Shown: positions 3,854-26,637 of the stretch, one piece after another
How the letters are laid out: each line of letters begins with the position of its first letter
Position numbering within the stretch: position 1 is the first letter of the stretch
IMG/VR virus record: IMGVR_UViG_3300021373_002462
Coordinates: 1-29,457 of that record
DNA length: 29,457 nucleotides
Origin: a virus
Reading direction: 5' to 3' (one strand)
Notes under the pieces: generated by a model
What the model was told of the DNA's origin: nothing
Database searches by the model: none
The model's input: only the letters and a program-made list of their open reading frames with translations
Position numbers and translations under genes: made by a program

Positions 3854-4216
3854 ATGAATTACTTTTCTGAAAAGGAGCTCTCCTGCACTTGTTGTGGGCA
3901 ATATAATTTTGATGATGGATTCCTATTGGTACTTAATCAGATCCGTGAGCGTTGCGGTTTTCCCCTTGTTGTTACCAGTGCTTATCGTTGCCCTAACCAT
4001 CCTATAGAAGCAGCGAAAGAGAACCCCGGGCAAGGGGAGCATTGCACTGGCATGGCTATAGACATCGGTGTAAGCCACGACAGAGCTCATATTTTGCTAC
4101 AAGTAGCATTTAGCATGGGCATCCCACGGATAGGCGTAAACCAGAAAGGCGCCGGCAGATTCATTCACCTGGGCATGTCGCCTGACTTTCCATATCCCAC
4201 GGTTTGGTCTTACTAA
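3854..4216 (+). CDS. Endolysin, M15-family L,D/D,D-peptidase
   Basis: 120 aa, no signal peptide. The family motif is complete: SAYRC (42-46), GEHCTGMAIDI with zinc ligands His63 and Asp70, and FIHLGM with His105. These are the metal-binding residues of Peptidase_M15 carboxypeptidase-like enzymes that cut peptide cross-links in murein. The single-domain size is normal for phage enzymes. It has a strong Shine-Dalgarno (TAGGAGGT, 3841-3848). It closes the lysis cassette and would need the holin to reach the wall. An N-terminal CTCCG cluster is unusual but does not replace any catalytic residue. The last codons contain one TATCCCACGG copy. Confidence 0.88.
   Translation: MNYFSEKELSCTCCGQYNFDDGFLLVLNQIRERCGFPLVVTSAYRCPNHPIEAAKENPGQGEHCTGMAIDIGVSHDRAHILLQVAFSMGIPRIGVNQKGAGRFIHLGMSPDFPYPTVWSY
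4193..4202 (+). repeat. TATCCCACGG dispersed motif, copy in endolysin gene
   Basis: Exact copy on the + strand, read in frame as Tyr-Pro-Thr plus the first base of Val near the end of the endolysin gene, 19 nt before the promoter at 4221. A near-match, CATCCCACGG, lies at 4120-4129. Confidence 0.7.
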
Positions 4217-4220
4217 TTAA

Positions 4221-4249
4221 TTGACACAAAACACGTTGTAACCTATTCT
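4221..4249 (+). promoter_or_regulatory. Sigma70-type promoter of the early operon
   Basis: A consensus -35 TTGACA (4221-4226) is separated by 17 nt from TATTCT (4244-4249), a 5/6 match to the -10 consensus. It lies in the only gap between the lysis genes and the recombination operon, 31 nt before the next ATG. Host-type RNA polymerase would therefore transcribe 4280 onward early in infection. Confidence 0.8.
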
Positions 4250-4279
4250 GTTATAAGAGACTTAAAAACAGGAGGGGTT

Positions 4280-4561
4280 ATGCTACACAGCATCTGCATT
4301 GTTGCCGACGTTCCAGCCGGCGCTACTTCATTTAAAGACGCTCCCATCGAGGATGTTACTGGAGGCCGGGTCTGGCTTTTGGTAGACGACGACGATTGTT
4401 ACTGGGAGCCAACTATCATCGATAGCTTTATTGACGGCGAAGAGGGCGGGGTTCCGTTTGCTTCACCGACACAGGTTTTAGAGGGCTGCAAGGGATCTTG
4501 GTTTGGCTATGAGATTCTGAATGCAGAAGATTGTTACGCAGAGAGAGAGGGGTTTATTTAA
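4280..4561 (+). CDS. Hypothetical acidic protein, first gene of the early operon
   Basis: 93 aa, strongly acidic (VWLLVDDDDCYWEPTIID, 31-48). No known domain or membrane segment. It is the first gene behind the promoter at 4221 and has a good ribosome site (AGGAGGGG) just upstream of the ATG. The stop overlaps the ATG of the ERF gene (TAATG). Small acidic first-early proteins often inhibit host enzymes or mimic DNA, but nothing here proves that. Confidence 0.65.
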   Translation: MLHSICIVADVPAGATSFKDAPIEDVTGGRVWLLVDDDDCYWEPTIIDSFIDGEEGGVPFASPTQVLEGCKGSWFGYEILNAEDCYAEREGFI

Positions 4562-5214
4562 TGTTAGAAACTAGTCATGAAATCGAAGAGCTTGCGACAG
4601 CACTTAGCAAGGCTCAAGGTGAAATGGGATCGGCCAAGGCAAGCGCCGACAATCCTTTTTTTAAATCCAAGTACGCAGACCTTTCTGAGGTAATTAAGGC
4701 GCTGAAAGAGCCTTTTGCTTCTAACGGGCTGTCCTATACCCAGTTCCCGGTCATCGATGAAGATGGAGCCGGGGTGATTACTATTCTGATGCATAGCAGT
4801 GGTCAGTTTATGAAGTCAACGTACTTTTTGCCTCTGCTCAAGAGAGATGCTCAATCTGTCGGGTCATGCATTACCTACGCCAGGCGCTATGCCCTGCAAT
4901 CAATCGCTGGTATTCCCGCGGCCGATGATGATGGTAACAAGGCTAGTGAGGAGCGAGATCCAATGGCTATACATGATGAAGCGGTAAGGCGCAATTTGAT
5001 GTCGATATTTGCCATAAAAGCGGCAATCGGGATAGAGAATTGGGAAACCGCAGCGGAGGCTTACCACGAAATGACCAATGAAGATAAGGAGATATTATGG
5101 AGAGCTCCCAGTAAAGACGGTGTTTGGACTACAGCAGAACGCTCAGCATTCCGTTGTGATGAGTTTAACGCAGCAAGAAAGGCAATGTTTGGAGATAACG
5201 ATGGCGGGAATTAA
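4561..5214 (+). CDS. erf: ERF-family single-strand annealing protein
   Basis: 217 aa. The N-terminal two thirds match the ERF family: [15 protein letters not shown] (8-22), then [14 protein letters not shown] (33-46) and the conserved [20 protein letters not shown] (97-116), followed by ADDDGN. ERF proteins anneal complementary single strands and recombine or circularise phage DNA. The ATG at 4561 is preferred over an upstream TTG because it follows GAGAGAGGGG and overlaps the preceding stop. It is directly followed by SSB, the usual partner that supplies coated single strands. The C-terminal 90 residues are less conserved. Confidence 0.88.
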
Positions 5215-5614
5215 CAAGGTAATTTTAGTCGGAAATGTCGGCGACGATCCGCAAATGCGGAAGATGCCTAACGGGAACGGTGTGGCGAACCTCACAATTG
5301 CTACCAGCGAGTCATGGAGGGACAAGGCTACCGGGGAAGCCCGGGAAAGAACTGAATGGCACAAGGTCGTTTTCTTTGGGCCGAAGGCTGACATCATTGG
5401 TGAGCACGTCAAGACGGGCACTAAGCTTTATGTCGAGGGAGCTCTACGCACTAGGAAGTGGGAGGATAAATCTGGTGTAGAGCGTTACACGACAGAGATC
5501 ATTGGCGATAAGTTCGAGATGCTGTCTGCAAAGAATCCGTCTCAGAGTCGAGCCGAACCTAAACCTGAACCAGCAAAGGAGCAGCCATTCGATGAGGACG
5601 ACATCCCGTTCTAA
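5201..5614 (+). CDS. ssb: Single-stranded DNA-binding protein
   Basis: 137 aa, a typical OB-fold SSB. It opens [20 protein letters not shown], continues with [21 protein letters not shown] and the [13 protein letters not shown] strand, and ends with the acidic tail DEDDIPF that in bacterial SSBs recruits partner enzymes. An intact tail suggests it can use host SSB-interacting proteins. The ATG at 5201 overlaps the ERF stop by 14 nt; longer in-frame extensions upstream are not part of the family. The C-terminal linker is short and proline/glutamate rich. Confidence 0.95.
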
Positions 5615-5816
5615 ATACAACCTGGGTCAAGGTGTGATCCTGGCTCAAGAGCAACACGATCTATCGGTTGCACAACTGGCTGATCGATTAGGGACAAGTC
5701 GTATGCAAATCTATCGTTATAGAGAGGCAAGCGATCTTAAGTTTTCCAAGGTGTGCTTATTAGCCGATACCTTTGGAATGTCATTAGAGAGTTTTTTAGA
5801 GCTTTGCAGGAGATGA
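5592..5816 (+). CDS. XRE-like helix-turn-helix regulator
   Basis: 74 aa. The core [20 protein letters not shown] (25-44) is a clear helix-turn-helix with the Gly in the turn, followed by [20 protein letters not shown], the XRE four-helix pattern. AAGGAG lies 10 nt ahead of the ATG at 5592, which overlaps the end of ssb by 23 nt. As a single-domain DNA-binding protein in the early operon it could control early or late transcription. It is one candidate for a protein binding the dispersed TATCCCACGG sites. Confidence 0.75.
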
Positions 5817-5819
5817 TTT

Positions 5820-6020
5820 ATGAGTCACGTAACACAAATTCTTAAGCACCTCGAATCAGGGCCTATCACAGCGATGGAAGCTTTGAACAACTATGGATGC
5901 TTTCGGTTGGCCGCTCGTATTAATGACCTTCGCATGAAGGGTCATAACATACATACAGAGACAACGTACAAAGACGACAAGCGTTACGCTACTTACTATT
6001 TGGTCAAGGGAAAGGAGTAA
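5820..6020 (+). CDS. Small winged-helix-like HTH protein (HTH_39 type)
   Basis: 66 aa. The pattern QILKHLESGPITAMEALNNY with RLAARINDLRMKGHNI is that of the small phage helix-turn-helix family that reads like a winged helix (two helices, a turn, then a basic beta wing, TYYLVKGKE). It starts 3 nt after the previous stop and ends the early operon. Members are common in phage recombination regions, and their targets are mostly unknown. The stop lies inside the A-tract of the adjoining minus-strand terminator. Confidence 0.75.
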   Translation: MSHVTQILKHLESGPITAMEALNNYGCFRLAARINDLRMKGHNIHTETTYKDDKRYATYYLVKGKE

Positions 6021-6058
6021 AAAAAAGCCCCCTTACCGTTGTGGGTCAGTAAGGGGGC
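6019..6058 (-). terminator. Rho-independent terminator reading leftward
   Basis: A perfect 10-bp stem (6027-6036 with 6049-6058, 12-nt loop) has a run of eight A at 6019-6026 on the + strand. Read on the minus strand this is a GC-rich stem followed by eight U, a strong intrinsic terminator. There is no T-run on the + side, so it does not look designed for the rightward early operon. Confidence 0.8.
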
Positions 6059-6116
6059 AGAGACCATAGACAGGGGTATGTCGTGGTGGTATCTTGCAGG
6101 TGCGAACAAACAAGAT
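6019..6116 (-). ncRNA. Probable minus-strand small RNA, about 98 nt
   Basis: The RNA would start near 6116, 6 nt beyond a good minus-strand -10, and end in the U-run at 6019. It would fold as two hairpins. The 5' one pairs 6116-6111 with 6096-6091 (ATCTTG with CAAGAT, 14-nt loop), and the 3' one is the 10-bp terminator stem. Between them is a 32-nt single-stranded linker containing CAUACCCCU. That segment is complementary to AGGGGUAUG and could pair, with a small bulge, to the ribosome sites of the genes at 4280 and 14357. It is the only minus-strand unit seen in the window. Function is not known. Confidence 0.6.
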
Positions 6117-6122
6117 GGAAAC

Positions 6123-6151
6123 AGTATACAGAACGGTTTCGATCCCTTCAA
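6123..6151 (-). promoter_or_regulatory. Minus-strand promoter of the small RNA
   Basis: Read on the minus strand: TTGAAG (6151-6146), a 17-nt spacer, then TATACT (6128-6123). This matches 4/6 and 5/6 of the sigma70 boxes at ideal spacing, and it points at the terminator about 100 nt away. Confidence 0.6.
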
Positions 6152-6360
6152 ACACTTCCATCTATTAAATCGCAGAGATTACCGGGCGTTAGGCCAGGGA
6201 ACCGAAGAACCCTGGAGCGGAGTTGACCCTCTCTAAGATGCGCCCCGCTGGCTGAGAGCAAGTCAAGCGGATAGATGTCAAGATTCGATACGGTAATTAG
6301 CGCTCGTCATTGTTAACTTAATGATTGTTGTCCGCTAGGACATCAAAAGGGAGAGTGTGA
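6152..6360 (+). other. Non-coding spacer with small inverted repeats
   Basis: No convincing gene. It holds three small dyads: CCAGGG/CCCTGG (6194-6215), TCATT/AATGA around GTTAAC (6307-6324), and TGTCC-GCTA-GGACA (6329-6342). The last two lie just before the gene at 6361 and could be an operator or leader hairpin. No good + strand promoter was found. The ribosome site GGGAGAG (6349-6355) belongs to the next gene. Confidence 0.4.
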
Positions 6361-6936: not shown

Positions 6937-6941
6937 TAGAT

Positions 6942-7109
6942 ATGTATTTAATAATCGATTTTGAAGAGCTACGGATCATCCATGTCTGCTCAGACATTGT
7001 GCTGGCAGAGCAGATAAGACGCGCAGAGCCCGAGAGAGATTTAGCCACTGCTTTTGTCGTTGAATACAACATCAAGCCCGGTGAGTTGGGTTTTGGAGAA
7101 GAGGAGTAA
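6942..7109 (+). CDS. Small acidic hypothetical protein
   Basis: 55 aa. The ATG at 6942 is preferred; longer versions would overlap the upstream gene out of frame. The sequence (MYLIIDFEELRIIHVCSDIV) suggests a small alpha/beta protein with an acidic end, GFGEEE. No known domain. It ends 2 nt before the GTG of the PAPS-reductase-like gene, so the two are probably co-translated. Confidence 0.5.
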   Translation: MYLIIDFEELRIIHVCSDIVLAEQIRRAEPERDLATAFVVEYNIKPGELGFGEEE

Positions 7110-7111
7110 GC

Positions 7112-7858
7112 GTGCTAGTCATCAGCTTCTCAGGAGGACGATCTAGCGCAATGATGGCAAGGCAGCTGTTGGATTCAGGCGTCGATGATTACGAGATCAT
7201 TTTCTGTAACACTGGCAAGGAGATGCCTCAGACGCTAGATTTCGTAAATGATTGCTCGGTCAACTGGGGTGTCCCGATAACCTGGCTGGAGTATCAAAGC
7301 TTACGAAGCTTTAAGGTTGTCGGCTATCCCACGGCTAGTCGAGAAGGCGAGCCCTTTTACCAGTTGATTACCGACAAAAACTACTTGCTGAATATGGTTG
7401 CTCGCTTTTGTACGTCTGAACTCAAAGTGATGACCATTGATCGCTACTTGAAAAGCAAGGGTGTTGAAGACTATTCCACGGCTGTAGGTATCAGAGCGGA
7501 TGAGCCTCGAAGAGTCGCAAAGATGAGACAGAAGGACGGTTACATTACGCCGCTGGCTGATGCCAAAGTGACCTCATCTGACGTAGTAGATTTTTGGCGC
7601 GACCAACCTTTTGATCTCAACTTGCCTACTAGTGGGTTCTACAGCAATTGCGACCTGTGTTTTCTGAAAGGCTACGGCATTAAACAAAGCTTGGTGAGAG
7701 AGCAGCCGTCGTTAGCGACCTGGTGGGATCAACAAGAAAAACGCATCGATGCTAGGTTTCGTTCTGACCAACCAAGTTATGAGTCGATGATCATCGCGTC
7801 ATCAAGCCAGGACGATTTGTTTGGCTTCGAGTCTACGCCATGTTTCTGCGGAGATTGA
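7112..7858 (+). CDS. PAPS-reductase-like PP-loop ATPase with Cys cluster
   Basis: 248 aa from a GTG start. The N-terminal SFSGGRSSAMMA (5-16) is the pyrophosphate-binding PP-loop of the PAPS reductase/ATP-pyrophosphatase superfamily, followed by EIIFCNTGKEMPQTLDFV (28-45), where the Asn-Thr-Gly is typical. RFCTSELKV (98-106) is the conserved Cys motif. Later Cys occur at 180 and 183 (NCDLC) and 244 and 246 (CFC). Four of these could hold an iron-sulfur cluster, as in some nucleic-acid-modifying members such as DndC. No partner sulfur-modification genes are seen nearby. The substrate could be sulfate metabolism, tRNA or DNA; this is open. Confidence 0.8.
   Translation: MLVISFSGGRSSAMMARQLLDSGVDDYEIIFCNTGKEMPQTLDFVNDCSVNWGVPITWLEYQSLRSFKVVGYPTASREGEPFYQLITDKNYLLNMVARFCTSELKVMTIDRYLKSKGVEDYSTAVGIRADEPRRVAKMRQKDGYITPLADAKVTSSDVVDFWRDQPFDLNLPTSGFYSNCDLCFLKGYGIKQSLVREQPSLATWWDQQEKRIDARFRSDQPSYESMIIASSSQDDLFGFESTPCFCGD
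7325..7334 (+). repeat. TATCCCACGG dispersed motif, copy in PAPS-reductase-like gene
   Basis: Exact + strand copy, preceded by C, read as Tyr-Pro-Thr. A one-mismatch copy, TATTCCACGG, lies at 7472-7481 in the same gene. Confidence 0.7.
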
Positions 7859-7862
7859 TCAT

Positions 7863-8628: not shown

Positions 8629-8650
8629 CGTCGCTTCCTGGGGGGAAGAG

Positions 8651-9796
8651 ATGAGTTTATTGAACTACTGCAATACCGATCGGCAGAAACAGATCGTGTC
8701 CATGTTCGAGCAAGGTCTGACGCAGACCGAGATTGGTAAACAATTAGGAATTGCTAGAGAGACAGTCAAAGCCTGTGTGAAGACCGTCAAGAACAGAGCA
8801 GCCATGCAAGGGTATTCGCCTGATCACGACATGGTTCATACGGTTCCAGATGGCTACAAAATCAAAGGTGTATCCACTTACTACAATGATGAAGGTGTGC
8901 CGACAGGACAATGGGTCAAGTCTCAGTCAGATGAGAAGCGACAACTGGAAATCATGCTGGAGCGCTTGGATTCGGCGATGGACAGTATCCCACGGTATAA
9001 ACCCACGGATAGCCCGGAAGAGACAGACGAGAACCTTTTGACGTTGTTAACCATCACAGACTTCCACCTCGGGATGTACGCTTGGGAAGCCGAGACGGGT
9101 GATGCTTGGGATGTCGATATTGCAAGGCAAGTATTCCTAGATTCGGTTTACAAGATGATCAAAGGCAGTCCGAAATCCGAAGTTGGCGTTCTCTGTCAGT
9201 TAGGCGACTTCCTGCACTGGGATGGCATGTTGGCGATTACACCGACATCTGCTCATGTTCTGGATGCAGACACTAGGTACGGCAAATTAGTTGATCTCGC
9301 GATGACAGTAATGTCACAAGCGGTCGGTATGATGCTGGAGCACTTCGGCAGAGTAGTGGTTGTCAGCGCGGAAGGTAATCACGACATCTCCGGATCTATC
9401 TGGTTACGTAAATTCATTAAGCATGTCTTTGGAGACGATGAAAGAGTCGAAGTCATCGATAACGAGTTCCCGTTCTACGGTTACTTATGGGGAGAAACGA
9501 TGCTTGGCTTTCATCACGGTCACAAAGTTAAGTTGGCTAATCTCCATAAACTATTCGCTAGTGAACCTCGATTTAGAAAGATGTGGGGCTCCGCGACCCA
9601 GACATACATCCATGTCGGTCATTACCACAGTGAGAGGGTATTGGAGGACGGCGGCGCCATTGCAGAGCAACATCCCACTTTGTCCGCCAGGGATGCCTAT
9701 GCAGCCCGGGGTGGATGGGTTTCGCAACGGGGCGCGAAGGTAATTACTTATCACAAGACCGAAGGTGAAGTTGCTCGAATCACTGTTCGCCCATGA
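8651..9796 (+). CDS. HTH-metallophosphoesterase fusion
   Basis: 381 aa. Residues 12-50 form a helix-turn-helix of the LuxR/sigma-region-4 type (GLTQTEIGKQLGIARETVKA). From 130 on it is a calcineurin-like metallophosphoesterase with all metal motifs: TDFHLG (Asp137, His139), GDFLHWD (185-191), GNHD (242-245), HHGH (288-291) and GHYH (323-326). Such fusions are frequent in siphoviruses of aquatic bacteria. The substrate may be nucleic acid or a nucleotide, with the HTH targeting DNA. A strong ribosome site, GGGGGGAAGAG, precedes the ATG. One TATCCCACGG copy falls in the linker, read as Ser-Ile-Pro-Arg. Confidence 0.85.
   Translation: MSLLNYCNTDRQKQIVSMFEQGLTQTEIGKQLGIARETVKACVKTVKNRAAMQGYSPDHDMVHTVPDGYKIKGVSTYYNDEGVPTGQWVKSQSDEKRQLEIMLERLDSAMDSIPRYKPTDSPEETDENLLTLLTITDFHLGMYAWEAETGDAWDVDIARQVFLDSVYKMIKGSPKSEVGVLCQLGDFLHWDGMLAITPTSAHVLDADTRYGKLVDLAMTVMSQAVGMMLEHFGRVVVVSAEGNHDISGSIWLRKFIKHVFGDDERVEVIDNEFPFYGYLWGETMLGFHHGHKVKLANLHKLFASEPRFRKMWGSATQTYIHVGHYHSERVLEDGGAIAEQHPTLSARDAYAARGGWVSQRGAKVITYHKTEGEVARITVRP
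8986..8995 (+). repeat. TATCCCACGG dispersed motif, copy in metallophosphoesterase gene
   Basis: Exact + strand copy, here in a different codon phase (Ser-Ile-Pro-Arg) from the Tyr-Pro-Thr copies. A second CCCACGG follows at 9002-9008. Confidence 0.7.
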
Positions 9797-10880: not shown

Positions 10881-11087
10881 ATGACAAAAACACAAGTAAT
10901 GAAAGCCAAAAAACTCCGAGACCAAGGGCTATCCCACGGTTACATTGCCAATCAAGTACACGCACACGAAAGCACTGTCGCGCGCTGGCTGAGAAATTAC
11001 GAGATTTACGGGAACAGTCTCTTTACTGACTATCCCACGGTTAGGGTAGAATCGCCCTATGATCACTCTCAAGACCAACCTCGATAA
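10881..11087 (+). CDS. Helix-turn-helix protein (homeodomain-like)
   Basis: 68 aa. KAKKLRDQGLSHGYIANQ followed by VHAHESTVARWLRNYE is a helix-turn-helix of the resolvase/transposase or Trp-repressor-like class, with the Gly turn at the usual place. The ribosome site before the ATG is poor. The gene contains two exact TATCCCACGG copies (10930 and 11031), and five more lie 650-730 nt downstream, so it sits in the centre of the motif cluster. This makes it a candidate binder, by location only. It overlaps the next gene by 29 nt. Confidence 0.6.
   Translation: MTKTQVMKAKKLRDQGLSHGYIANQVHAHESTVARWLRNYEIYGNSLFTDYPTVRVESPYDHSQDQPR
10930..10939 (+). repeat. TATCCCACGG dispersed motif, first copy in HTH gene
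   Basis: Exact + strand copy in the third reading phase, encoding Leu-Ser-His-Gly inside the HTH turn. Confidence 0.7.
11031..11040 (+). repeat. TATCCCACGG dispersed motif, second copy in HTH gene
   Basis: Exact + strand copy, read as Tyr-Pro-Thr, 101 nt after the previous one and 19 nt before the start of the next gene. Confidence 0.7.
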
Positions 11088-11739
11088 AGTCGAAGGCACC
11101 CTTAAAGAACTCGCCGCGGGTCAGACCGCGTTCGCTATATCGCTCGCAATGCGTATGGCTCTCGTCGATACAAAAGCCGGCATACAGAAAGAGATGGTTC
11201 AGGGAGGCATCCAAGGAGGGCCTAAGCCGTGGACTCTAAACGGTATGCGGAGTGTCAAACCGACTAAGGATGATCTGCAAGCGGTTATGTTTTTCCCGGA
11301 AAACCGGCGATATATGCGAGAGATCATTTTTGGCGGTACAAAAAGAGCAACGAATAAAAGGCTGCCGGAGCCTATCCTCGCGAATATTGGTAGGGATCTC
11401 ACCTCAAAAGGTAACATCAGCCGTCGCGTATTTAAGGCGGGTAATCTGATCGACGGCCGAACGGGTGGCCGATACTTCATTGGCGTGCCAAAAGGGTTCC
11501 CGGATACTCCAGGCAATCGAGGTATTTGGCGCCGAACTGGTAAAGGCGGTTATAAGAAAGGCCAGGCGCGCGGAAAGATTACGCAGATCGTCAACCTGGG
11601 TCGGCCAGCACGGCAGCAGCGGATCACCTTCCCGGCCGACGAAATCGCAATCAGAGAATTCAAACTTTCAGTCGTTAGGCATTGGCCTTTCGCAATGAAG
11701 CGAGCAATCGAAACCGCACGCCTCGATAAATACCTTTAA
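11059..11739 (+). CDS. Virion morphogenesis protein, gpZ-like minor tail (tentative)
   Basis: 226 aa, very basic. The N-terminal helices (AAGQTAFAISLAMRMALVDT, 19-38) followed by a basic middle and a C-terminal FAMKRAIETARLDKYL helix follow the layout of prophage minor tail protein Z. The family name is tentative. If right, the protein would be a tail or head-completion component, yet the gene lies 3 kb upstream of terS rather than between the gpFII-like and gpU-like genes, where lambda keeps Z. It overlaps the HTH gene and is followed directly by the TATCCCACGG array, starting 2 nt after its stop. Confidence 0.45.
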   Translation: MITLKTNLDKVEGTLKELAAGQTAFAISLAMRMALVDTKAGIQKEMVQGGIQGGPKPWTLNGMRSVKPTKDDLQAVMFFPENRRYMREIIFGGTKRATNKRLPEPILANIGRDLTSKGNISRRVFKAGNLIDGRTGGRYFIGVPKGFPDTPGNRGIWRRTGKGGYKKGQARGKITQIVNLGRPARQQRITFPADEIAIREFKLSVVRHWPFAMKRAIETARLDKYL

Positions 11740-11740
11740 C

Positions 11741-11818
11741 TATCCCACGGCTATCCCACGGTTAAAGGGTATCCCACGGCTATCCCCTGGTTACGGCTAT
11801 CCCACGGCTATCCCACGG
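11741..11818 (+). repeat. Array of six TATCCCACGG repeats in three phased pairs
   Basis: Five exact copies (11741, 11752, 11770, 11798, 11809) and one two-mismatch copy (11781), all on the + strand. Starts are spaced 11, 18, 11, 17 and 11 nt: three pairs, each at one helical turn, with pair-to-pair distances of 29 and 28. This is the form of a multi-site protein-binding region such as an iteron origin, partition site or operator. Confidence 0.85.
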
Positions 11819-12003
11819 ATACCGTCCAAACCCACTTCAAACCGGCATAAAAACGGCGTTTCTTAGGTCAAAAAGTTATATAGACTGCCGCGACGGGCGT
11901 CAAAAAATATCGCATTAAATGTAACAAAAAGAGTGACAATTAAAGGGGTTTGCGGCATATTGGGGGTGTGGCAATAACGCCACGCAATCAAAAGGGGCAT
12001 GAC
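11819..12003 (+). promoter_or_regulatory. Promoter region of the CCGG-rich cassette
   Basis: No gene. GTGACA (11933-11938, 5/6 to -35), a 17-nt spacer and CATATT (11956-11961, 4/6 to -10) form a fair promoter. Right at its expected start is a dyad GTGGC-AATAAC-GCCAC (11968-11983), suited to be an operator or a 5' leader hairpin. AAGGGG (11991-11996) serves the ATG at 12004. Confidence 0.5.
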
Positions 12004-12150
12004 ATGGCACGCAAAAAGAGACTTTCAGCACGGCAAAAAATGGAACGGCGCGAAAAGACACAAGCTATTGTGATTTGGTGCGCGTTCGTATTTGTGGGAA
12101 TTCCTTTTGCTTGCTTGTTAGGCCATGCGATTGGTCAAGCTTTTATCTAA
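12004..12150 (+). CDS. Small basic single-TM protein
   Basis: 48 aa. The first 20 residues are strongly basic (MARKKRLSARQKMERREK), then one membrane segment AIVIWCAFVFVGIPFACLLG (21-40). An N-in orientation is expected from the positive charges. It is the first gene of the cassette, with a clear ribosome site. There is no homology I recognise; small one-TM proteins of this kind are often morons affecting the host envelope. Confidence 0.55.
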   Translation: MARKKRLSARQKMERREKTQAIVIWCAFVFVGIPFACLLGHAIGQAFI

Positions 12151-12174
12151 CTATTAACTATGTAGGTGCGAACT

Positions 12175-12291
12175 ATGAAAACTTTTCTATATCACGGCCA
12201 GCCATTCGGCAGCTTTGCGGAATTGGTGGAACATATCTCGTATGAGATTGAAATGAGCTCTTTATTGGAAAGCGTAGGGGGTGACGTATGA
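12175..12291 (+). CDS. Tiny ORF, 38 aa
   Basis: 38 aa, MKTFLYHGQPFGSFAELVEH and a helical acidic end. Too short for most gene finders, but supported by position: it starts 24 nt after the previous stop, GTAGGTG lies upstream, and its stop overlaps the next ATG (ATGA). The FxSFAELVEHI stretch resembles the short helix found in small phage proteins. Function unknown. Confidence 0.45.
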   Translation: MKTFLYHGQPFGSFAELVEHISYEIEMSSLLESVGGDV

Positions 12292-12395
12292 ATCCGGCCG
12301 ACATCTATTACGCCACCGGCGTATTTTTCGCTTTCATCTTAATAACAACATTAATTGGCCTTTTGATTCATGCGGCCTTAAGGGGTGATCTATGA
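12288..12395 (+). CDS. Tiny single-TM protein, 35 aa
   Basis: 35 aa, nearly all membrane segment (residues 5-30, GVFFAFILITTLIGLLIHAA), short polar ends. It is linked by ATGA overlaps on both sides (12288 and 12392), which strongly suggests a real, coupled gene. With the protein at 12004 it is the second tiny membrane protein of the cassette. The role is unknown. Confidence 0.5.
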   Translation: MNPADIYYATGVFFAFILITTLIGLLIHAALRGDL

Positions 12396-13090
12396 AGCTG
12401 CTAGATACAAACGCGAACCCCGGGAACCTCAAAATAGCTAAAACGCAAAAGGCAAGCTTTAAGCGTCGATTTGCGGGTTTGTCGTTATTCCCGGACCCGA
12501 TCATTTGCGCCGGTAGTAAAGCGGCCGGATGCATGGCGGCTTGTCTTAAGCTGGCGGGTCGGGGTCGTTTTGAAAACGTGCAAGATGCCCGGCAAGCGAA
12601 AACCGATTTTTACCATACGGACCGAATCGCGTTTATTGATCAATTGCTGGCGGAGCTCTCGAATTTTGATCGGCTTTGTGCGCGGCAAGGGGTAAAGGGT
12701 ACGGTTCGGCTTAACGTGCTATCTGATATCGCTTGGGAAGACTATCACATCCCGGAGCAATTTCCGGAGCTCGATTTTTACGATTACACGAAACGCGCCA
12801 AACGCTTATTCAATGTCCCGGGTAATTATCGCCTAATGTTTAGCGCATCCGGTGAACCGGCATATAAAAAGCAATTGGAGCTTGGGTTATCGGCCGGGGT
12901 CCCGGTTTCGTTTGTTTACCGCGGCAATTGTCCTGACGTTATGTTTGGACGCCGGGTTATTGATGGGGATGCTAGCGATTGGATAAACGCAAACGCCGGC
13001 CCGGTAGCATTAGCACTGAAAGCAAAAGGCCCGGCAAAGAATGATACCGGGTCATTTGTTTACGATTTTGACACTATAGCGAAGGGGTGA
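12392..13090 (+). CDS. GP88-family protein (phage gene product 88)
   Basis: 232 aa. The family signature is clear: LDTNANPGNLKIAKT (4-18), FAGLSLFPDPIICAGSKAAG (27-46) with Cys39, Cys47 and Cys51, GRGRFENVQDARQAKT (56-71), and VRLNVLSDIAWED (105-117). GP88 proteins occur in many unrelated phages, and their function is not established. The three spaced Cys suggest metal or iron-sulfur binding. It is the largest gene of the CCGG-rich cassette, coupled by ATGA to the gene before and with the next start 5 nt after its stop. Family assignment is strong; the role is unknown. Confidence 0.75.
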   Translation: MKLLDTNANPGNLKIAKTQKASFKRRFAGLSLFPDPIICAGSKAAGCMAACLKLAGRGRFENVQDARQAKTDFYHTDRIAFIDQLLAELSNFDRLCARQGVKGTVRLNVLSDIAWEDYHIPEQFPELDFYDYTKRAKRLFNVPGNYRLMFSASGEPAYKKQLELGLSAGVPVSFVYRGNCPDVMFGRRVIDGDASDWINANAGPVALALKAKGPAKNDTGSFVYDFDTIAKG

Positions 13091-13095
13091 ACGGT

Positions 13096-13422
13096 ATGGA
13101 CATAAAGACACAAAGGGAGCTCGCATTCTTTATGGCGGGCATTGAATGCGGCCGGATGTTTAAGCTTGTACATATGAGCACATCTAAGGTCGGTTTATGG
13201 TTCGAGAATCAGCACGATGAAACCGCGTTAAATGTCAATTTAATGTGTGGCTTTATCGGGTATGAAGGGGATAACGACGAATGGCCGAACGATTGTCGCC
13301 ACGCTGCAGTCAGAGGGATTCTAGCGGATGCGATAAGAGACGCCAAAACAGCGTTTGATTTGAAGCGCGAGATATTGAGAGAGCGCGAACAAATGTTAAT
13401 TGGGGGTGAAGCCAATGATTAG
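13096..13422 (+). CDS. Hypothetical protein of the GP88 cassette
   Basis: 108 aa from ATG 13096 (GAAGGGG lies 8 nt upstream; an in-frame GTG at 13087 is less likely). Helical ends flank a middle with WFENQHDETALNVNLMCG. The C-terminus is a long charged helix (FDLKREILREREQ). No recognised domain. It overlaps the next gene by 8 nt. Confidence 0.5.
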   Translation: MDIKTQRELAFFMAGIECGRMFKLVHMSTSKVGLWFENQHDETALNVNLMCGFIGYEGDNDEWPNDCRHAAVRGILADAIRDAKTAFDLKREILREREQMLIGGEAND

Positions 13423-13636
13423 CGCACAATTTGAGAGAATACAAACCGCGGCCGGCGGAACGCTTGCAAGTGATACGGCGATTGTCCGGGCGTTTTGGGC
13501 TCTACTCAGTGATAAAGGTAAAACCCGCGATATGCGCCATATTCGCCATGTACAGCTACGCGAAGCGTTAACGCGCCATCATAAAGACCAAGCGCGATAC
13601 TTTGAAATGTACGGAAAAAGGGAGTATCAAAAATGA
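13415..13636 (+). CDS. Hypothetical helical protein
   Basis: 73 aa, basic and helical (AIVRAFWALLSDKGKTRDM, then RHIRHVQLREALTRHHKD). The high Arg/His content suggests nucleic-acid contact, but no motif is specific. The stop overlaps the next ATG (ATGA). Confidence 0.5.
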   Translation: MISAQFERIQTAAGGTLASDTAIVRAFWALLSDKGKTRDMRHIRHVQLREALTRHHKDQARYFEMYGKREYQK

Positions 13637-13836
13637 GAAGCTATATCGTAACCTGGTCGTTTGATTATGGCGGAGTAGGTGAGCCCCTAGACTATTGGGT
13701 TATTTGTGAAAGCTACACGGACGCCCGGCGCGCCTATACAAAAGCGATAGACTCGCACGCATATGTTGCGACCATATCGCAAGTTATAGAGTCCACGGAC
13801 TATGAACCATTAACTGCAGAAGAGAGCGCGCTATAA
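13633..13836 (+). CDS. Hypothetical small protein
   Basis: 67 aa with alternating strand-helix look (SYIVTWSFDYGG, YWVICESYTDARRAYTKAID). This may be a small ferredoxin-like fold. It is coupled on both sides (ATGA before, TAATG after). No family recognised. Confidence 0.5.
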   Translation: MRSYIVTWSFDYGGVGEPLDYWVICESYTDARRAYTKAIDSHAYVATISQVIESTDYEPLTAEESAL

Positions 13837-14123
13837 TGTTTCAGATGTTTATTAAGGCAAACGGTGAGCGACCATTCCCGGCGCGACATTTGCCCGAGGA
13901 CGCGGCGACTGATTGCGAACAATGGGTGATTGACCAATTGCCCGAAATGCAAAGCCGATTAGTTGGCATTCTGAATAGCGGTGACCATTGGAAGCAGAAT
14001 CCAGATGATCACCTATTTTGGAACCTTCGATCCATCTACGCGGATCAATGCCATCCGGAAATTGTGACTAGTGAAGCAATGCGCCATCTGTGGACATTGG
14101 TTGACATAGACGCGAACGCTTAA
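13836..14123 (+). CDS. Hypothetical protein, last gene of the cassette
   Basis: 95 aa, acidic (ARHLPEDAATDCEQWVIDQL, 16-35), with several Trp and His residues and no membrane segment. Not recognised. The gene ends 20 nt before a strong terminator, so it marks the end of the operon that starts at 12004. Confidence 0.5.
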   Translation: MFQMFIKANGERPFPARHLPEDAATDCEQWVIDQLPEMQSRLVGILNSGDHWKQNPDDHLFWNLRSIYADQCHPEIVTSEAMRHLWTLVDIDANA

Positions 14124-14142
14124 ACCCATCACCTACCCTATG

Positions 14143-14168
14143 CCCCGCCATCGTGCGGGGTTTTTTTT
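14143..14168 (+). terminator. Rho-independent terminator of the GP88 cassette
   Basis: A 6-bp GC stem CCCCGC/GCGGGG (14143-14148 with 14155-14160) with a 6-nt loop is followed by eight T (14161-14168). It separates the cassette from the packaging genes. Confidence 0.9.
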
Positions 14169-14290
14169 GCCCGTCGCCCGGGCATTCGATCCCCATCAAA
14201 TCGACGCGAACCGGCCGTGCGCGGCCATCAAGGTACTTTGACGCCGGCACCGCAAGGGTGCTGGAACGCCGCGCTCTTTCACTAGGCACA
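14169..14290. other. Hairpin-rich GC stretch before terS, possible cos region
   Basis: Non-coding. Three hairpins follow one another: GCCCG/CGGGC (14169-14183), GGCCG-TGCG-CGGCC (14213-14226) and an 8-bp stem with one G-T pair around GCAAG (14244-14264). A near-palindrome at 14228-14241 lies between the last two. Lambda-type phages with gpA terminase keep their packaging site directly before the small terminase gene, so this is a plausible cos/cosB candidate. No cut site can be assigned. Confidence 0.35.
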
Positions 14291-14356: not shown

Positions 14357-14788
14357 ATGAGTACAGGTGGAGTCAAACTGGGCTCGTCTTATGACGAAGC
14401 GCGTACCAGGAAGGTAAATGCGGAAGCAGAAATTGCAGAACTGGAGTTGGCGAAGCTAAAAGGTGTTCTTGTCGTAGCAGAAGATGTTACAACGGCATGG
14501 GAAGATGTGCTGGGCGCCTTCAAAGGCAAACTATTATCGATCCCTTCTAAGGCAGCGCCCGTCGTTGCATCCGAATTAGAGGCAGGCGGGTGTCAGAAGA
14601 TACTGGAAGACCTGATCAACGAGGCATTAACAGAACTATCTAACTATGACCCTAAAGTTGACCCCACAACAGCGACAGTCTCTGTCGAATCATCTGACGA
14701 AAGCGATACAAACACTCAAGCCACCCGAAAAGCTAAGCGTAAGCCAGTGGGCAGACCAAAAAAGACGACTCGACTCGCAGACAAGTAG
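14357..14788 (+). CDS. terS: Terminase small subunit (Nu1-like)
   Basis: 143 aa. The N-terminal YDEARTRKVNAEAEIAELEL (12-31) is the long helix typical of Nu1-type small subunits, followed by VVAEDVTTAWEDVLGAFKGK and LLSIPSKAAPVVASE, also family-like. The small subunit recognises the packaging site and controls the large subunit. The C-terminal 40 residues are Ser/Thr/Asp rich and then basic (KRKPVGRPKK, AT-hook-like), which could bind DNA. That tail is encoded in the 143-nt overlap with terL. The N-terminal HTH of lambda Nu1 is not visible. Confidence 0.8.
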   Translation: MSTGGVKLGSSYDEARTRKVNAEAEIAELELAKLKGVLVVAEDVTTAWEDVLGAFKGKLLSIPSKAAPVVASELEAGGCQKILEDLINEALTELSNYDPKVDPTTATVSVESSDESDTNTQATRKAKRKPVGRPKKTTRLADK

Positions 14789-16508: not shown

Positions 16509-16517
16509 AGGATTTTT

Positions 16518-17102: not shown

Positions 17103-18589
17103 TGGGCATTTTTGACTTTGGACGTAAGAAGAAAGAAGAGAAGCCACGTTTTGTGAAGCGTACTTATGCCGGCGCGGGTCAAAACAGATTATTAGCAGAC
17201 TTCTTTGACTCGCAACGATCAGCGGATAGTGAGCTCCGTCCAGTCATCAAGACGCTACGGAATAGAGCTAGAGATCTTTGTCGTAACAACGAATACGCAA
17301 AGCGTTATGTAAACCTAATGAAGACCAATGTGGTAGGCAGCCGAGGCTTTACTTTGCAGGTGAAGGCATTAGGCGGTGATGGTCTGCTTGATCTACAGGG
17401 TAACAAGGCTGTTGAAAACGCATTCTCTACATGGGGCAAAACTGGTAATTGCACTATTGACGGTCGTCTTTCTTGGGTTGATGCACAAAAGCTAGTAATC
17501 GAAAGCTTGGTGCGAGATGGTGAAGTATTCATCGTTAAACATCGAGGTCGGGATTACCATGATTCATTTGCCTTGCAGTTCATCGAGCCCGATGAGATTG
17601 ACGAGCAGAAGAATGAAAAGTTACCGGGCGGCAATGAGATCCGAATGGGAGTGGAGTTGGATGCCAACAAGCGTCCAGTGGCTTATCACAAGCTAACCTA
17701 TCACCCAGGCGACTACGATTACGCGATGATGACCGGGAAGAGCAAGCACATTCGCATACCGGCCGATCAAGTTATCCATATCTTCATGCCTTTGCGCGCA
17801 GGACAGACTCGTGGGGAGCCTTGGCTTTCACCTGTCATGCCGGCAATGAAACAGTTAGGTGGTTTTCGTGAGGCAGCGGTCATCAATGCACGTATTGGCG
17901 CCTCTAAAATGGGTTTCTTTACGTCGCCTTCCGGGGATGGCTTCGTTCCTGATGAGCTAGACAATCACACCCCGATCATGTCTGCGGAACCCGGAACCTT
18001 CCATCAGCTGCCTACCGGGGTTTCACTGGAGAGCTTTGAACCTGCTTTCCCTAGCAATGAGTTTGATGACTTCCATAAATCGGTACTCAAGGGCATAGCA
18101 AGTGGACTCGGCGTTTCTTATACGTCGCTATCTAATGATCTTGAGGCCACGTCGTACAGTTCTATACGCCAGGGCGCGTTAGAAGAGCGTGACTTCTACC
18201 GCGATATACAGCAATTCATTATCGATCATTTCATATCTATTGTTTATGAGTCTTGGCTAGATGCCGCTATGGATATGCGGTCGTTCAATATCGGAGCCAA
18301 TCAGTTTGAGCGGTTTTTAATGGCCTCTAGCTTTAGTGGTCGCGCTTGGAGTTGGGTCGATCCGCTCAAAGAGATGAATGCGGCGATTGTCGGCATGAAG
18401 AATGGTGTGTTGTCTATCCAAGATGTCGCATCTCAGTATGGTAAGGATGTAGAAGATCTCTTCTCGCAGATTCAGCGTGATAAGGCGCTGGCTGAACAGT
18501 TTGGTATTCAATTCGCTCTTGAGCCTTATGGAACTGAGAAAGCGCAAGTTGACGCCGACATCGTAGGGGATGAAGATGGCGAAGTATAA
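17102..18589 (+). CDS. Portal protein (lambda family)
   Basis: 495 aa (lambda gpB 533). Typical patterns: RNRARDLCRNNEYAKRYVNL (49-68), LVRDGEVFIVKH, LQFIEPDEID, GVELDANKRPVAYH, and TSYSSIRQGALEERDFYRDI in the C-terminal half. The dodecameric portal is the channel for DNA entry and the seat of the terminase and connector. The C-terminal acidic end overlaps the start of the capsid polyprotein gene by 14 nt. No sign of a truncated gpC-type (S49) protease fused here. Confidence 0.93.
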   Translation: MGIFDFGRKKKEEKPRFVKRTYAGAGQNRLLADFFDSQRSADSELRPVIKTLRNRARDLCRNNEYAKRYVNLMKTNVVGSRGFTLQVKALGGDGLLDLQGNKAVENAFSTWGKTGNCTIDGRLSWVDAQKLVIESLVRDGEVFIVKHRGRDYHDSFALQFIEPDEIDEQKNEKLPGGNEIRMGVELDANKRPVAYHKLTYHPGDYDYAMMTGKSKHIRIPADQVIHIFMPLRAGQTRGEPWLSPVMPAMKQLGGFREAAVINARIGASKMGFFTSPSGDGFVPDELDNHTPIMSAEPGTFHQLPTGVSLESFEPAFPSNEFDDFHKSVLKGIASGLGVSYTSLSNDLEATSYSSIRQGALEERDFYRDIQQFIIDHFISIVYESWLDAAMDMRSFNIGANQFERFLMASSFSGRAWSWVDPLKEMNAAIVGMKNGVLSIQDVASQYGKDVEDLFSQIQRDKALAEQFGIQFALEPYGTEKAQVDADIVGDEDGEV

Positions 18590-21212
18590 AGGTAAGGATA
18601 TCGACACAATTCCAACTGATGCGATGGTCGCAGAAGCTAAGCGCGGCTTGGAATGGAGAAAAGAACATGGACGAGGTGGTACTGAAGTGGGTGTTGCGAG
18701 GGCTAGAGATATATCTAACCGTCGTGAGCTCAGCATTGATACTGTTAAGCGTATGTCTTCTTTTTTTGCTCGACACGCTGTGGATGCTGACGCAGAAGGC
18801 TTTCGCCCTGGTGAAGATGGTTATCCGAGTAATGGTCGGATTGCACATGCTCTTTGGGGCGGTAATCCCGGCCGACAATTCGCGTCGAGGGTAATGAAAT
18901 CAGTGGAGGCACTAGATGAACGTCAAGAAGTTAGCGAGTCAGTTAAAAAGTCACTTAGCAAAAAAGCAGAAGATCATAATGCTGAAGTGGGAGATGTTGA
19001 AAGCAAACGAACTAATGTACGAACGCTTAGTGCTGTTTTTCGGCGCGGCGTTGGTGCTTATTACACTAACCCTAGTTCTGTAAGACCGAATGTAAAGTCA
19101 CCAGAACAATGGGCTCAAGCTAGGGTAAACTCATTCCTTTACGTTCTAAGAAACGGGAAATTTAGAAGCGGAAAGCATGACACGGATTTGTTACCATCAG
19201 GACATCCGATGTCGTCCAAAGGAAGGACTGAAGAAATTGTGACACATGTCAACGAGGATATTGAGATGACAGATATAGTTGAAGAACACGTCGATATGGA
19301 GCGACACATTCAAAGTGTTCAAGAAACAGATGATTCCTATGTCATCACGTTTGGGAAGTCTATGCCCGAAGAGCGTGACGGTCACGAGGAAGAAGAAGAG
19401 CGCATGGGTCATGAAGATGACGAGCGTGATGAGCATGATGCGGAGCGAGAAGTTGCTGTCGAAGTAGAGCATCGCGCCATGCATATGGATGCAAAGCCCA
19501 TAGAAGAAGACACTCGACGAGTTCGCATGTCTATCTCTTCTGAGGAGCCCGTAGAGCGCTCTTATGGCAAAGAAGTCTTAGAACATAGTGAGGAAGCCAT
19601 TGATATGACTTTCCTCAATAGCGGCCGCGCCCCGCTGCTTCTGGATCACGATCCTGAGAAGCAAGTTGGCGTTGTAGAATCGGCAGAACTTGATGGCTCG
19701 GCACGTAGACTACGTGCGACGGTGCGCTTTGGAAAAGGCACACTCGCTAGAGAGGCTTTTGACGATGTAGTAGACGGTATCAAAGCCAATATTTCTATTG
19801 GTTACGCCGTCAAGAAAATGGAGCGAAGTGATAGCGATACGTATGTAGCGAAATCATGGAAACCCCTGGAAGCCTCGCTTGTGAGCATCCCGGCTGATCA
19901 ATCGACCCTGGTCGGCGTAGGTCGCTCAAATGAAGCTTCACCCCAACCTTCAATTAAAACCAACTTTAAGGAGGACGTTATGTCTGAAGTTGATATTGCA
20001 GCGGTTGAGGCAGAAGCCAAGAAAACCGCATCTCGTAATGCCGCAGAAATCATGGCATTGACTACCAAGCACAACATGGCTGACCTCGGTCAACGTGCTA
20101 TTGCTGAAGGCAAGTCAATCGATGAAGTCCGTGGCGCTGTTCTTGACCAGATTGGCACTAAGCCACTCGAGTCAAATGACATCGGCCTGACTGAGAAAGA
20201 AGTTAAGCGCTTCTCACTCTTCAATGTCGTTAACGCTTTGGCTAACCCGTCTGACCGTCGCGCTCGCGAAGCTGCTGCTTTCGAGTTCGAGGTATCAGAA
20301 GCGACTGCTAAGCGTTCTGGCAAAGACCCACAGGGCCTGATGGTTCCTTACCAGGTACTGAGCCAACGTGACCTTAACTCGGCGGATGAGTCAGATCTGT
20401 TCTCAGATGACTTCCGCGGTGGTGAGTTCATCGACGTACTCCGCAACTCATCTTCAGTAATGCAAGCTGGTGCTCGCATGTTGCAAGGTTTGAGCGGAGA
20501 TGTAGCTATTCCTAAGAAGGCGACTTCGGCTTCTGCGGCATGGATTGCTACTGAAGGCAACGCGGCTTCTGAGTCAGAGATGACTACTACATCAGTGACA
20601 ATGGTTCCACGTCAGCTTGCGGCGTTTACTGACATCACTCGTCAGTTGCGTCAGCAGAGCTCACTGGATGCAGAAGCACTGGTACGTGATGATCTCGCAC
20701 AGTCTTTGGCGCTTGCTGTTGACTTGGCTGCTCTGCAAGGTTCTGGCTCTTCTGGTCAGCCTACAGGCATCAAGAACACATCTGGCATCAACACTGTAGA
20801 CTTTGGCACCTCGCCTATCCTTGTTCCTTCGTTCGCTAAGATCGTAGACATGGAGACAGCAGTTGCTGAAGACAATGCGTTGACTGGAAACCTCGCTTAC
20901 ATCATGCCTGCGGCAATGTACGGCGGCTTGAAGACAACTGAGAAGGCGTCTAACACCGCTCAGTTCGTTGTTGAGCCCGGCGGCACTGTCAATGGTTACC
21001 GCACTATCGTATCTAACCAGTGTACTGCTGGTGATGCCTTTTTCGGTAATTTTTCGGATTTGCTCGTTGGGATGTGGGGTGCCGGTGTTGACATCACCGT
21101 CGACCCATACAGCCTCTCAACCACAGGCTCGATTCGCATCGTAGCCTTCCAGACTATCGACGTTGCAGTTCGCAACGCTGTTAGCTTCTGCTTGGGTAAC
21201 GACGATCAGTAA
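18576..21212 (+). CDS. Capsid polyprotein: N-terminal phage domains + prohead protease + major capsid protein
   Basis: 878 aa without an internal stop. Domain 1 (about 1-115) has GRGGTEVGVARARDISN, a conserved phage head-region domain. Domain 2 (about 145-215) has VFRRGVGAYYTNPSSVRP and a DLLPSGHP end. An acidic/His-rich linker follows (about 220-325). The prohead protease (about 328-450) contains LLLDHDPEKQVG with a likely catalytic His358 and NISIGYAV with Ser407, ending PLEASLVSIPADQST. The HK97-fold capsid protein begins at residue 469. A self-cleaving assembly precursor is inferred. ATG 18576 is preferred to 18570 because it is better spaced from AGGGGA. The fusion is unusual: most relatives have separate genes. 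Confidence 0.85.
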   Translation: MAKYKGKDIDTIPTDAMVAEAKRGLEWRKEHGRGGTEVGVARARDISNRRELSIDTVKRMSSFFARHAVDADAEGFRPGEDGYPSNGRIAHALWGGNPGRQFASRVMKSVEALDERQEVSESVKKSLSKKAEDHNAEVGDVESKRTNVRTLSAVFRRGVGAYYTNPSSVRPNVKSPEQWAQARVNSFLYVLRNGKFRSGKHDTDLLPSGHPMSSKGRTEEIVTHVNEDIEMTDIVEEHVDMERHIQSVQETDDSYVITFGKSMPEERDGHEEEEERMGHEDDERDEHDAEREVAVEVEHRAMHMDAKPIEEDTRRVRMSISSEEPVERSYGKEVLEHSEEAIDMTFLNSGRAPLLLDHDPEKQVGVVESAELDGSARRLRATVRFGKGTLAREAFDDVVDGIKANISIGYAVKKMERSDSDTYVAKSWKPLEASLVSIPADQSTLVGVGRSNEASPQPSIKTNFKEDVMSEVDIAAVEAEAKKTASRNAAEIMALTTKHNMADLGQRAIAEGKSIDEVRGAVLDQIGTKPLESNDIGLTEKEVKRFSLFNVVNALANPSDRRAREAAAFEFEVSEATAKRSGKDPQGLMVPYQVLSQRDLNSADESDLFSDDFRGGEFIDVLRNSSSVMQAGARMLQGLSGDVAIPKKATSASAAWIATEGNAASESEMTTTSVTMVPRQLAAFTDITRQLRQQSSLDAEALVRDDLAQSLALAVDLAALQGSGSSGQPTGIKNTSGINTVDFGTSPILVPSFAKIVDMETAVAEDNALTGNLAYIMPAAMYGGLKTTEKASNTAQFVVEPGGTVNGYRTIVSNQCTAGDAFFGNFSDLLVGMWGAGVDITVDPYSLSTTGSIRIVAFQTIDVAVRNAVSFCLGNDDQ
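19967..19974 (+). promoter_or_regulatory. Internal Shine-Dalgarno for separate capsid protein
   Basis: TAAGGAGG, a perfect complement to the 16S rRNA tail, lies 5 nt before an in-frame ATG at 19980. It occurs inside the open frame of the polyprotein, exactly at the protease/capsid border, and is the strongest ribosome site noticed in the window. Confidence 0.85.
19980..21212 (+). CDS. Major capsid protein, HK97 family (internal start product)
   Basis: 410 aa made from the internal ATG, the normal size of an HK97-like capsid precursor. Residues 1-105 are helical and charged, the delta scaffold domain usually removed by the protease (VAAVEAEAKK-like start, TKHNMADLGQRAIAEGKSID). The core then follows with MVPYQVLSQRD, the long spine helix, DVAIPKKATSASAAWIATEG, the P-domain pattern LAAFTDITRQLRQQSSLDAE, and LQGSGSSGQPTGIKNTSGIN. 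It shares its frame with the longer polyprotein, so both forms may be made, with the short one in excess. A strong terminator follows. Confidence 0.88.
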   Translation: MSEVDIAAVEAEAKKTASRNAAEIMALTTKHNMADLGQRAIAEGKSIDEVRGAVLDQIGTKPLESNDIGLTEKEVKRFSLFNVVNALANPSDRRAREAAAFEFEVSEATAKRSGKDPQGLMVPYQVLSQRDLNSADESDLFSDDFRGGEFIDVLRNSSSVMQAGARMLQGLSGDVAIPKKATSASAAWIATEGNAASESEMTTTSVTMVPRQLAAFTDITRQLRQQSSLDAEALVRDDLAQSLALAVDLAALQGSGSSGQPTGIKNTSGINTVDFGTSPILVPSFAKIVDMETAVAEDNALTGNLAYIMPAAMYGGLKTTEKASNTAQFVVEPGGTVNGYRTIVSNQCTAGDAFFGNFSDLLVGMWGAGVDITVDPYSLSTTGSIRIVAFQTIDVAVRNAVSFCLGNDDQ

Positions 21213-21248: not shown

Positions 21249-21258
21249 GGAGAGTGTT

Positions 21259-22243: not shown

Positions 22244-22304
22244 TCAAGGTATTTTTTTTAAGGTAAACTTGAGTTTTACGCTCGCTCGTTAAGAGGAAAC
22301 ATCA

Positions 22305-22724: not shown

Positions 22725-22727
22725 ACC

Positions 22728-25469: not shown

Positions 25470-26011
25470 TGGCTGACTTTGATGCGTTAAACATTGGAAT
25501 TCGTTCGATGACTATGCGGTTGCGATCTGCGACTGCAATTAGCACGTCCCCATTTACTTTTGATCAACAGGTATATCAGCATCAAGGCGTGCGATGGGAA
25601 GCAGAAGTTACGTTACCACCTTTGAAAAGAGCAGACGCGAAAAAGGTAGAAGCGTTCTTGGCTGGTTTGCGCGGTCAAGCTAATAGTTTCACGATGAGTA
25701 ATCCTCTACATGATGTTAATGCCAACGGCACGATAACTAGCGGCTCAACCAACGCAACGACAGTGACCGGGACTTTAGGAGGGGCTACAACAGGCGATTA
25801 TTTTTCTGTTGGCGGTCACCTTTACATTATTACAGATACTGGATCGGGCTCTTTCGACATCATGCCTCCCTTAAGAACAGCAGCGTCTAATGCCACCTTA
25901 GACTTTGAGTTGCCTCAAGGAGCGTGGCGACTCGCATCTAATGATATTGATTGGAATATAGATAAAGCAGGCATTTATGGCTTTACCTTTGCTTGCGTTG
26001 AGGCGATATGA
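25469..26011 (+). CDS. Minor tail tip protein, gpM-like/distal tail
   Basis: 180 aa. QVYQHQGVRWEAEVTLPPLK followed by a helix (ADAKKVEAFLAGLRG) and FTMSNPL is a pattern seen in distal-tail proteins. A Thr/Gly-rich middle (GSTNATTVTGTLGGATTGDY) suggests a beta insertion. The end GIYGFTFACVEAI closes the fold. It comes right after the tape measure, where lambda M lies, with TAATG coupling before and ATGA after. It forms the ring that starts tube assembly. Confidence 0.75.
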   Translation: MADFDALNIGIRSMTMRLRSATAISTSPFTFDQQVYQHQGVRWEAEVTLPPLKRADAKKVEAFLAGLRGQANSFTMSNPLHDVNANGTITSGSTNATTVTGTLGGATTGDYFSVGGHLYIITDTGSGSFDIMPPLRTAASNATLDFELPQGAWRLASNDIDWNIDKAGIYGFTFACVEAI

Positions 26012-26637
26012 GTAGAGGTCTTGAATCTGGAATGCTTGCGGCGACAACTGCGGATGTTGTTCGCCCGATTATGTTGGTTCAGTGCGACTTTGATAGTGGC
26101 GATCTCAATTTATGGAGCGGGGTCGGTGATCTGACGGTAGATTCTGTCACTTATATTGGCGCTGGCACTCTATTGACGATTAGCGGTGTCAATGAATCAA
26201 CAGAGCTTACTGCGAGCGGTGTGACAGTAACTTTGTCAGGCGTGACAGAGCCTCTTATCTCTAAAGCCAGGGATGAAAATTATCAAGGCAGAGAGCTGAA
26301 GATTCTGCTAGGCGCGATGGATTCTACTAATAGTGTCATCGACGACCCTGTAATCATCTTCAGTGGCTTTATGGATGTAATGATAATCCAAGATGGCGGA
26401 GAGACAGCGACAATTGCAGTCCAGGTTGAGAACAGACTTATTGAGTTTCAGCGAAATAGGGTCAGACGCTACACGGCAGAAGATCAAAAACTAGACTATC
26501 CCACGGATAAAGGCTTGGAGTTTGTAGCGGAGATAGCAGAGAAGGAAATTGTCTGGGGGAGATCACAAGCTACGCCGCAAACTCCGCCTGGAGGAGGTGA
26601 TACAGATTATGATGAGGGCGACAGACATCATGATTAG
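26008..26637 (+). CDS. Minor tail tip protein, gpL-like (DUF2163 type)
   Basis: 209 aa. The sequence VRPIMLVQCDFDSGDLNLWS, then GTLLTISGVNESTELTASGV and the later EFQRNRVRRYTAEDQKLDYP is characteristic of gpL/DUF2163-like tail proteins, which form the hub above gpJ. The end is a low-complexity acidic tail (GGGDTDYDEGDRHHD). No Cys cluster, seen in lambda gpL for an iron-sulfur site, is present: only one Cys is found. One TATCCCACGG copy is read as Tyr-Pro-Thr. Confidence 0.75.
   Translation: MSRGLESGMLAATTADVVRPIMLVQCDFDSGDLNLWSGVGDLTVDSVTYIGAGTLLTISGVNESTELTASGVTVTLSGVTEPLISKARDENYQGRELKILLGAMDSTNSVIDDPVIIFSGFMDVMIIQDGGETATIAVQVENRLIEFQRNRVRRYTAEDQKLDYPTDKGLEFVAEIAEKEIVWGRSQATPQTPPGGGDTDYDEGDRHHD
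26497..26506 (+). repeat. TATCCCACGG dispersed motif, copy in gpL-like gene
   Basis: Exact + strand copy, preceded by C and read as Tyr-Pro-Thr-Asp. It is the only exact copy in the late tail genes; TATCCCCCGG at 16620-16629 is a one-mismatch relative. Confidence 0.7.

Follow-up and report, generated by a model that had tools for sequence, protein, structure and literature searches.

The stoperators of phage L5 and other cluster A phages are short asymmetric sites that occur in many copies, lie in short intergenic gaps and have an orientation tied to transcription (PMC9283540), and among known kinds of element they appear closest to the repeated motif analysed here. The motif also resembles the iterons of plasmid and phage origins, which are tandem direct repeats in a non-coding region; the lambda nut/put RNA signals, which are co-directional elements in transcribed regions; and the R sites of lambda cosB, which are repeated terminase sites near the chromosome end. 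It differs from L5 stoperators in its sequence, in its concentration into an array that follows a single tail gene, and in that most of its scattered sites are inside genes; moreover, no L5-type two-domain repressor or integrase was recognized, and the regulators encoded in the window (the whole 29,457-base stretch of DNA analysed) match small XRE/HTH families. A sequence-only reading of this DNA had held that none of the known motifs it named (L5 stoperators, start-associated sequences, nut-like RNA signals) has this sequence, and a literature string search likewise returned no description; searching for CTATCCCACGG retrieved unrelated papers only, and the 2025 paper that describes the CRP-822 family (PMC12629253) nowhere contains the word 'repeat'.

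The window is a virus record that by gene content represents a siphophage, with genes for terminase, portal, capsid and tail proteins, an Erf-like annealing protein, SSB, NinB, NinG and a gpZ-like tail protein; no integrase was recognized in it. One 880-aa ORF (18570–21212) matches both head protease and major head protein families in a single frame. The nearest isolated relatives of the terminase are those of Roseobacter phages CRP-821/822/823/831/811/406 (55–58% identity). These phages lack the motif, which may explain why it has gone unnoticed.

The 10-mer TATCCCACGG was recovered 11 times in the window, at the coordinates given by the sequence-only reading and always on the + strand, against 0.06 copies expected from dinucleotide shuffling; none of 100 shuffles attained 11. 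C precedes 8 of the 11 copies. The copies had been described as dispersed. The count held; the dispersal did not, as the sites comprise an array of six units, two sites before gpZ, and single sites at 7325, 7472 and 26497 (Table 1). The array spans 78 bp, contains five exact copies and one variant, and begins 2 nt beyond the gpZ-like gene's stop codon; its first pair is flanked by an 8-bp inverted repeat, CCTTTAAC / GTTAAAGG (11732–11767). Against a family matrix learned from sites in relatives, the exact 10-mers at 4193 and 8986 score less than 13 bits; both are missing the flanking bases. The four one-mismatch forms that had been added to the set are all present, and with the extended motif the one at 7472 scores as a site, while those at 2564, 4120 and 16620 score below 13 bits; together with 4193 and 8986, these three would be either weak sites or chance matches. 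In ORF coordinates, coding copies occupy all three codon phases (4193, 7325, 11031 and 26497 in phase 0, 10930 in phase 1, 8986 in phase 2), which supports the earlier suggestion that selection acts on the nucleic acid and not on a peptide. The PAPS-reductase-like gene (7112–7858), which holds two motif copies, also contains an imperfect 18-nt palindrome at 7779–7802.

Table 1 Features of the window (positions are those of the 29,457-base stretch; bit scores from the family matrix).
Feature	Position	Strand	Score or support
Main array, six head-to-tail units at 11741, 11752, 11770, 11781 (variant TATCCCCTGG), 11798 and 11809	11741..11818	+	each 18.5–29.5 bits
Layout of main array: three 11-bp tandem pairs at intervals of 29 and 28 bp	11741..11818	+	
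Site before gpZ, within small HTH ORF	10930..10939	+	25.6 bits
Site 28 bp ahead of gpZ start codon	11031..11040	+	24.5 bits
Scattered site, PAPS-reductase-like gene	7325..7334	+	26.9 bits
Scattered variant site TATTCCACGG, PAPS-reductase-like gene	7472..7481	+	21.6 bits
Scattered site, tail gene	26497..26506	+	24.6 bits
Exact 10-mer without flanking bases; weak or chance	4193..4202	+	<13 bits
Exact 10-mer without flanking bases; weak or chance	8986..8995	+	<13 bits
gpZ-like minor tail (tail completion) gene, f0	11059..11739	+	PHROG 1924, E 4.7e-17
Small XRE/Cro-type HTH gene, f6, candidate site reader	5502..5816	+	Pfam HTH_3, E 3e-5; f6 profile E 2.3e-25 at 5613–5804
Small HTH gene directly before gpZ, second candidate reader	10881..11087	+	HTH_28/HTH_23 weak, below cut-off; PHROG 664
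Sigma-70-like promoter GTGACA-17-CATATT, 3' of array, into right-end block	11933..11961	+	consensus match only
Right-end gene block: small ORFs, GP88-like gene (12392–13090), intrinsic terminator at end (14142–14161)	11950..14161	+	
Predicted cos region, with packaged left end at 14257 (GGTGCTGG...)	14232..14264	+	conserved block before TerS; contig ends of relatives

Relatives were gathered by scanning viral contigs for two motif copies no more than 30 bases apart, which reported 95 stretches. Seven loci (L011, L023, L029, L038, L046, L063 and L081) had pairs spaced by 15 bp or sites in opposite reading frames, were excluded by eye, and are probably coding repeats; after stretches of one record were merged, the working set comprised 87 contigs (1.10 Mb). 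As these contigs were chosen via the repeat, its frequency among them is uninformative on phages generally. The full unit proved longer than the 10-mer, [GG/TA]C-TATYCCAYRG-N-T-A, with GGC and TAC as frequent prefixes and a family matrix of [GG or TA]C-TAT[C/t]CCA[C/t][G/a]G-N-T-A. Within it, TATCC-CAY-RGNTA forms a partial dyad with arms TATCC and GGNTA, and no site is inverted. Spacings between sites peak at 11 and 21 bp, the remaining ones not being helical multiples.

Orientation was strictly one-way. At 13 bits or more, the array strand carried 752 sites and the opposite strand 0 (87 contigs, 1.1 Mb), a count that follows in part from the contigs having been oriented so that most motif copies face forward. 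Sites away from gpZ barely enter this choice of strand and offer a fairer test: at 16 bits, 58 were forward (55 distinct contexts) and 0 reverse in 819 kb. Contigs read backwards as a control gave 1 match at 14 bits, and in none of the loci retrieved from the two-copy scan did the exact word occur on both strands. The asymmetry and co-direction noted for the window phage extend to many others. The data give good support for a cis element that is conserved and strictly polar.

The position of the sites was also conserved. A gpZ HMM matched 80 of the 87 contigs, and 516 of the 705 sites at 16 bits (73%) lay within 900 bases after gpZ. The 1.5 kb preceding gpZ held a further 109 (15%); another 58 were at other locations, and the last 22 came from contigs lacking gpZ. 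The 69 non-redundant gpZ arrays contain 2–16 sites (median 7), and in 58 of them the first site is no more than 15 nt from the gpZ stop. The gpZ proteins of 23 carriers are only 20–39% identical to that of the window, so the word is kept well beyond general sequence similarity. Sites before gpZ are also present in many relatives. Of the other junctions, the clearest is that between f2 and f22, where pairs of sites recur at spacings of 11, 15, 19 or 35. The sequence-only reading had proposed that a lack of conserved site positions in relatives would refute the motif; this refutation did not occur, as positions were kept around gpZ and at the f2–f22 junction. Long genomes hold at most 17 sites each at 16 bits, 73% of all sites being in the gpZ array, and 44 of the 58 scattered sites are inside reading frames. 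Comparison of the array with phage records at the DNA level gave no convincing direct match. Taken as a strong and widespread cis signal, the motif marks many mutually diverged, uncultivated tailed phages.

Some relatives from other lineages, obtained via terminase and not via the repeat, carry different but related repeats at the same spot. Eight one-way copies of TATTTCCACTGGAGGT run from the gpZ stop onward in L346, and three one-way copies of GTATYCCATACACCCC do so in L274/G036; contig scans for TATTTCCACTGGAGGT and GTATYCCATACACCCC returned the same two contigs only. This replacement, as read from the sequences, points to a lineage-specific reader that would co-evolve with its site, and having three related sequences in use at a single conserved position amounts to a natural experiment in reader–site co-evolution. 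It also bears on whether the motif is a selfish or neutral tandem repeat that spreads without function, as its copy number of 2–16 and variable spacing might suggest. Related replacement repeats at the same place, exact words kept there across highly diverged phages, and the 58:0 orientation of scattered copies all speak against such a repeat, and we regard it as very improbable.

Strict co-direction with genes, and sites that follow stop codons and sometimes come just before ribosome binding sites, could also be expected of an element acting in the transcript, through processing, antitermination or translation control. The f2–f22 junction sites, wedged between a stop codon and a ribosome binding site, fit such an RNA-level role. 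However, the array RNA folded no better than shuffles (z −0.42), and the TATCC/GGNTA arms showed no covariation. We found in the array no hairpin or boxA–boxB structure of the lambda nut/put kind, and large tandem arrays, here of up to 16 copies, are unusual for signals of that kind. Rfam and tRNA searches gave no match. We consider action at the RNA level unlikely, and the nut-like signal named among the possibilities in the sequence-only reading found no hairpin support.

An intergenic strip densely packed with direct repeats of one short asymmetric word, at periods of 11 and 21 bp, is also what would be seen if the array were a replication origin whose iterons bind an initiator. Several observations make this quite unlikely. 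Carriers of the array differ in their replication genes (some have helicase f4 and zinc-ribbon f2, the window phage f9), no initiator is linked to the array, and, unlike iterons, the motif has satellite copies scattered in late genes. DnaA boxes were not enriched near the array, and IHF-like sites near it showed no clear enrichment. No GC-skew switch was found in the window, where genes running one way make skew uninformative.

A role in packaging was also considered, with the array as cos or as binding sites for the terminase small subunit. In Cronusvirus cos directly follows gpZ, and the TerS of most array phages (14357–14788 in the window) is without the N-terminal HTH of the CRP phages, G003 retaining one. 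But about 20 contigs have a conserved cos-like block ahead of TerS, and many relatives that were assembled independently start at that block with GGT..., from which the packaged left end of the window would be 14257, next to TerS and 2.4 kb from the array, a distance that sets the array apart from the R sites of lambda cosB. Phage R4C and the Rhodobacter capsulatus RcA phages have ends with 14-nt and 13-nt 5' overhangs (PMC6836515, PMC8601537). With the predicted natural ends 2.4 kb away, the array as a cos or terminase site was rejected as largely refuted, and we give it hardly any weight. Where gpZ abuts cos (L243, L311, G030, G031 and Cronusvirus) there is no array, so the array tends to accompany the gene block between gpZ and cos. 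The contig ends of G002 (L173, L174) repeat about 62 bases near the cos region at both ends, with one mismatch.

A word read by a host factor, Chi-like or other, and collected by the phage could also be oriented one way along the chromosome, which for Chi would be useful. Yet the motif differs by phage lineage, and a search of 84,980 species genomes for tandem copies no more than 30 bases apart found no comparable arrays; such an origin for the motif would surprise us. The 63 hits in these genomes look like unrelated repeats, such as the planctomycete GACAGGCTGGAAGCCTATCCCACGG family. A recurrent GACAGGCTGGAAGCCTATCCCACGG-like repeat, unrelated to the phage motif, was seen at L109, L110, L120, L122, L124 and other planctomycete loci.

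The likeliest reading is that the motif is bound by protein and controls transcription, and we propose, tentatively and with somewhat less than even confidence, that it serves as a polar docking site for a DNA-binding regulator that the phage itself encodes and that would exert direction-dependent control of transcription. Under this proposal, the strip of sites would be placed where gpZ ends and the gene block beside the right chromosome end starts, and further sites precede gpZ or lie at a handful of other positions. The bound protein would stop or hand over RNA polymerase coming out of gpZ and would govern the promoter that serves the right-end block, in the manner of stoperators but with the sites concentrated in an array. 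In 27 of 56 cases the 400 bp following the array contained promoter-like pairs matching at least 9 of 12 positions, compared with 130 of 560 random windows; in the window itself, 4 promoter matches were found in the region against 6.0 expected, so that the match at 11933 is not beyond expectation. The lack of comparable arrays in GTDB species genomes and of a recognized integrase suggests a lytic lineage, which would remove the usual reason for stoperators and counts against the explanation.

The sites themselves, their conservation, one-way direction and position, and the change of their sequence between lineages are observed; the reading by a protein, the phage origin of the reader and the effect on transcription are all inferred, and the best candidate reader is possibly the XRE protein f6. 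Of the three HTH genes that the sequence-only reading had named for binding experiments, the first, f6, co-occurs with the array in relatives. Among long array records with canonical gpZ, 13 of 14 gave strong f6 scores, the exception being an incomplete record (G003); of gpZ records lacking the array, 0 of 10 did (G047 reached just 2.8e-4). Of array records with divergent gpZ, 0 of 3 had f6 (G001, G008 and G013), and in G029 f6 is present while motif and gpZ are absent. Since many phages encode small XRE proteins and the records are themselves related, this co-occurrence is weak evidence. Contrary to what autoregulation would predict, no site lies near the f6 gene. The solved structure nearest to f6 by sequence is the controller protein C.BclI. 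The candidate readers are small proteins that lend themselves to testing.

More speculatively, and with a probability that we consider low, the locus could represent an undescribed regulatory system across a sizeable group of uncultivated siphophages with cos ends, in which a polar array behind gpZ and a fast-evolving small reader would control the passage of RNA polymerase or the entry of DNA at the right end, using three or more site sequences and therefore as many specificities. In five of the loci (L010, L013, L039, L040 and L053), a reversed gene block is followed by a weakly matching XRE-like ORF, an arrangement that resembles a repressor–Cro layout.
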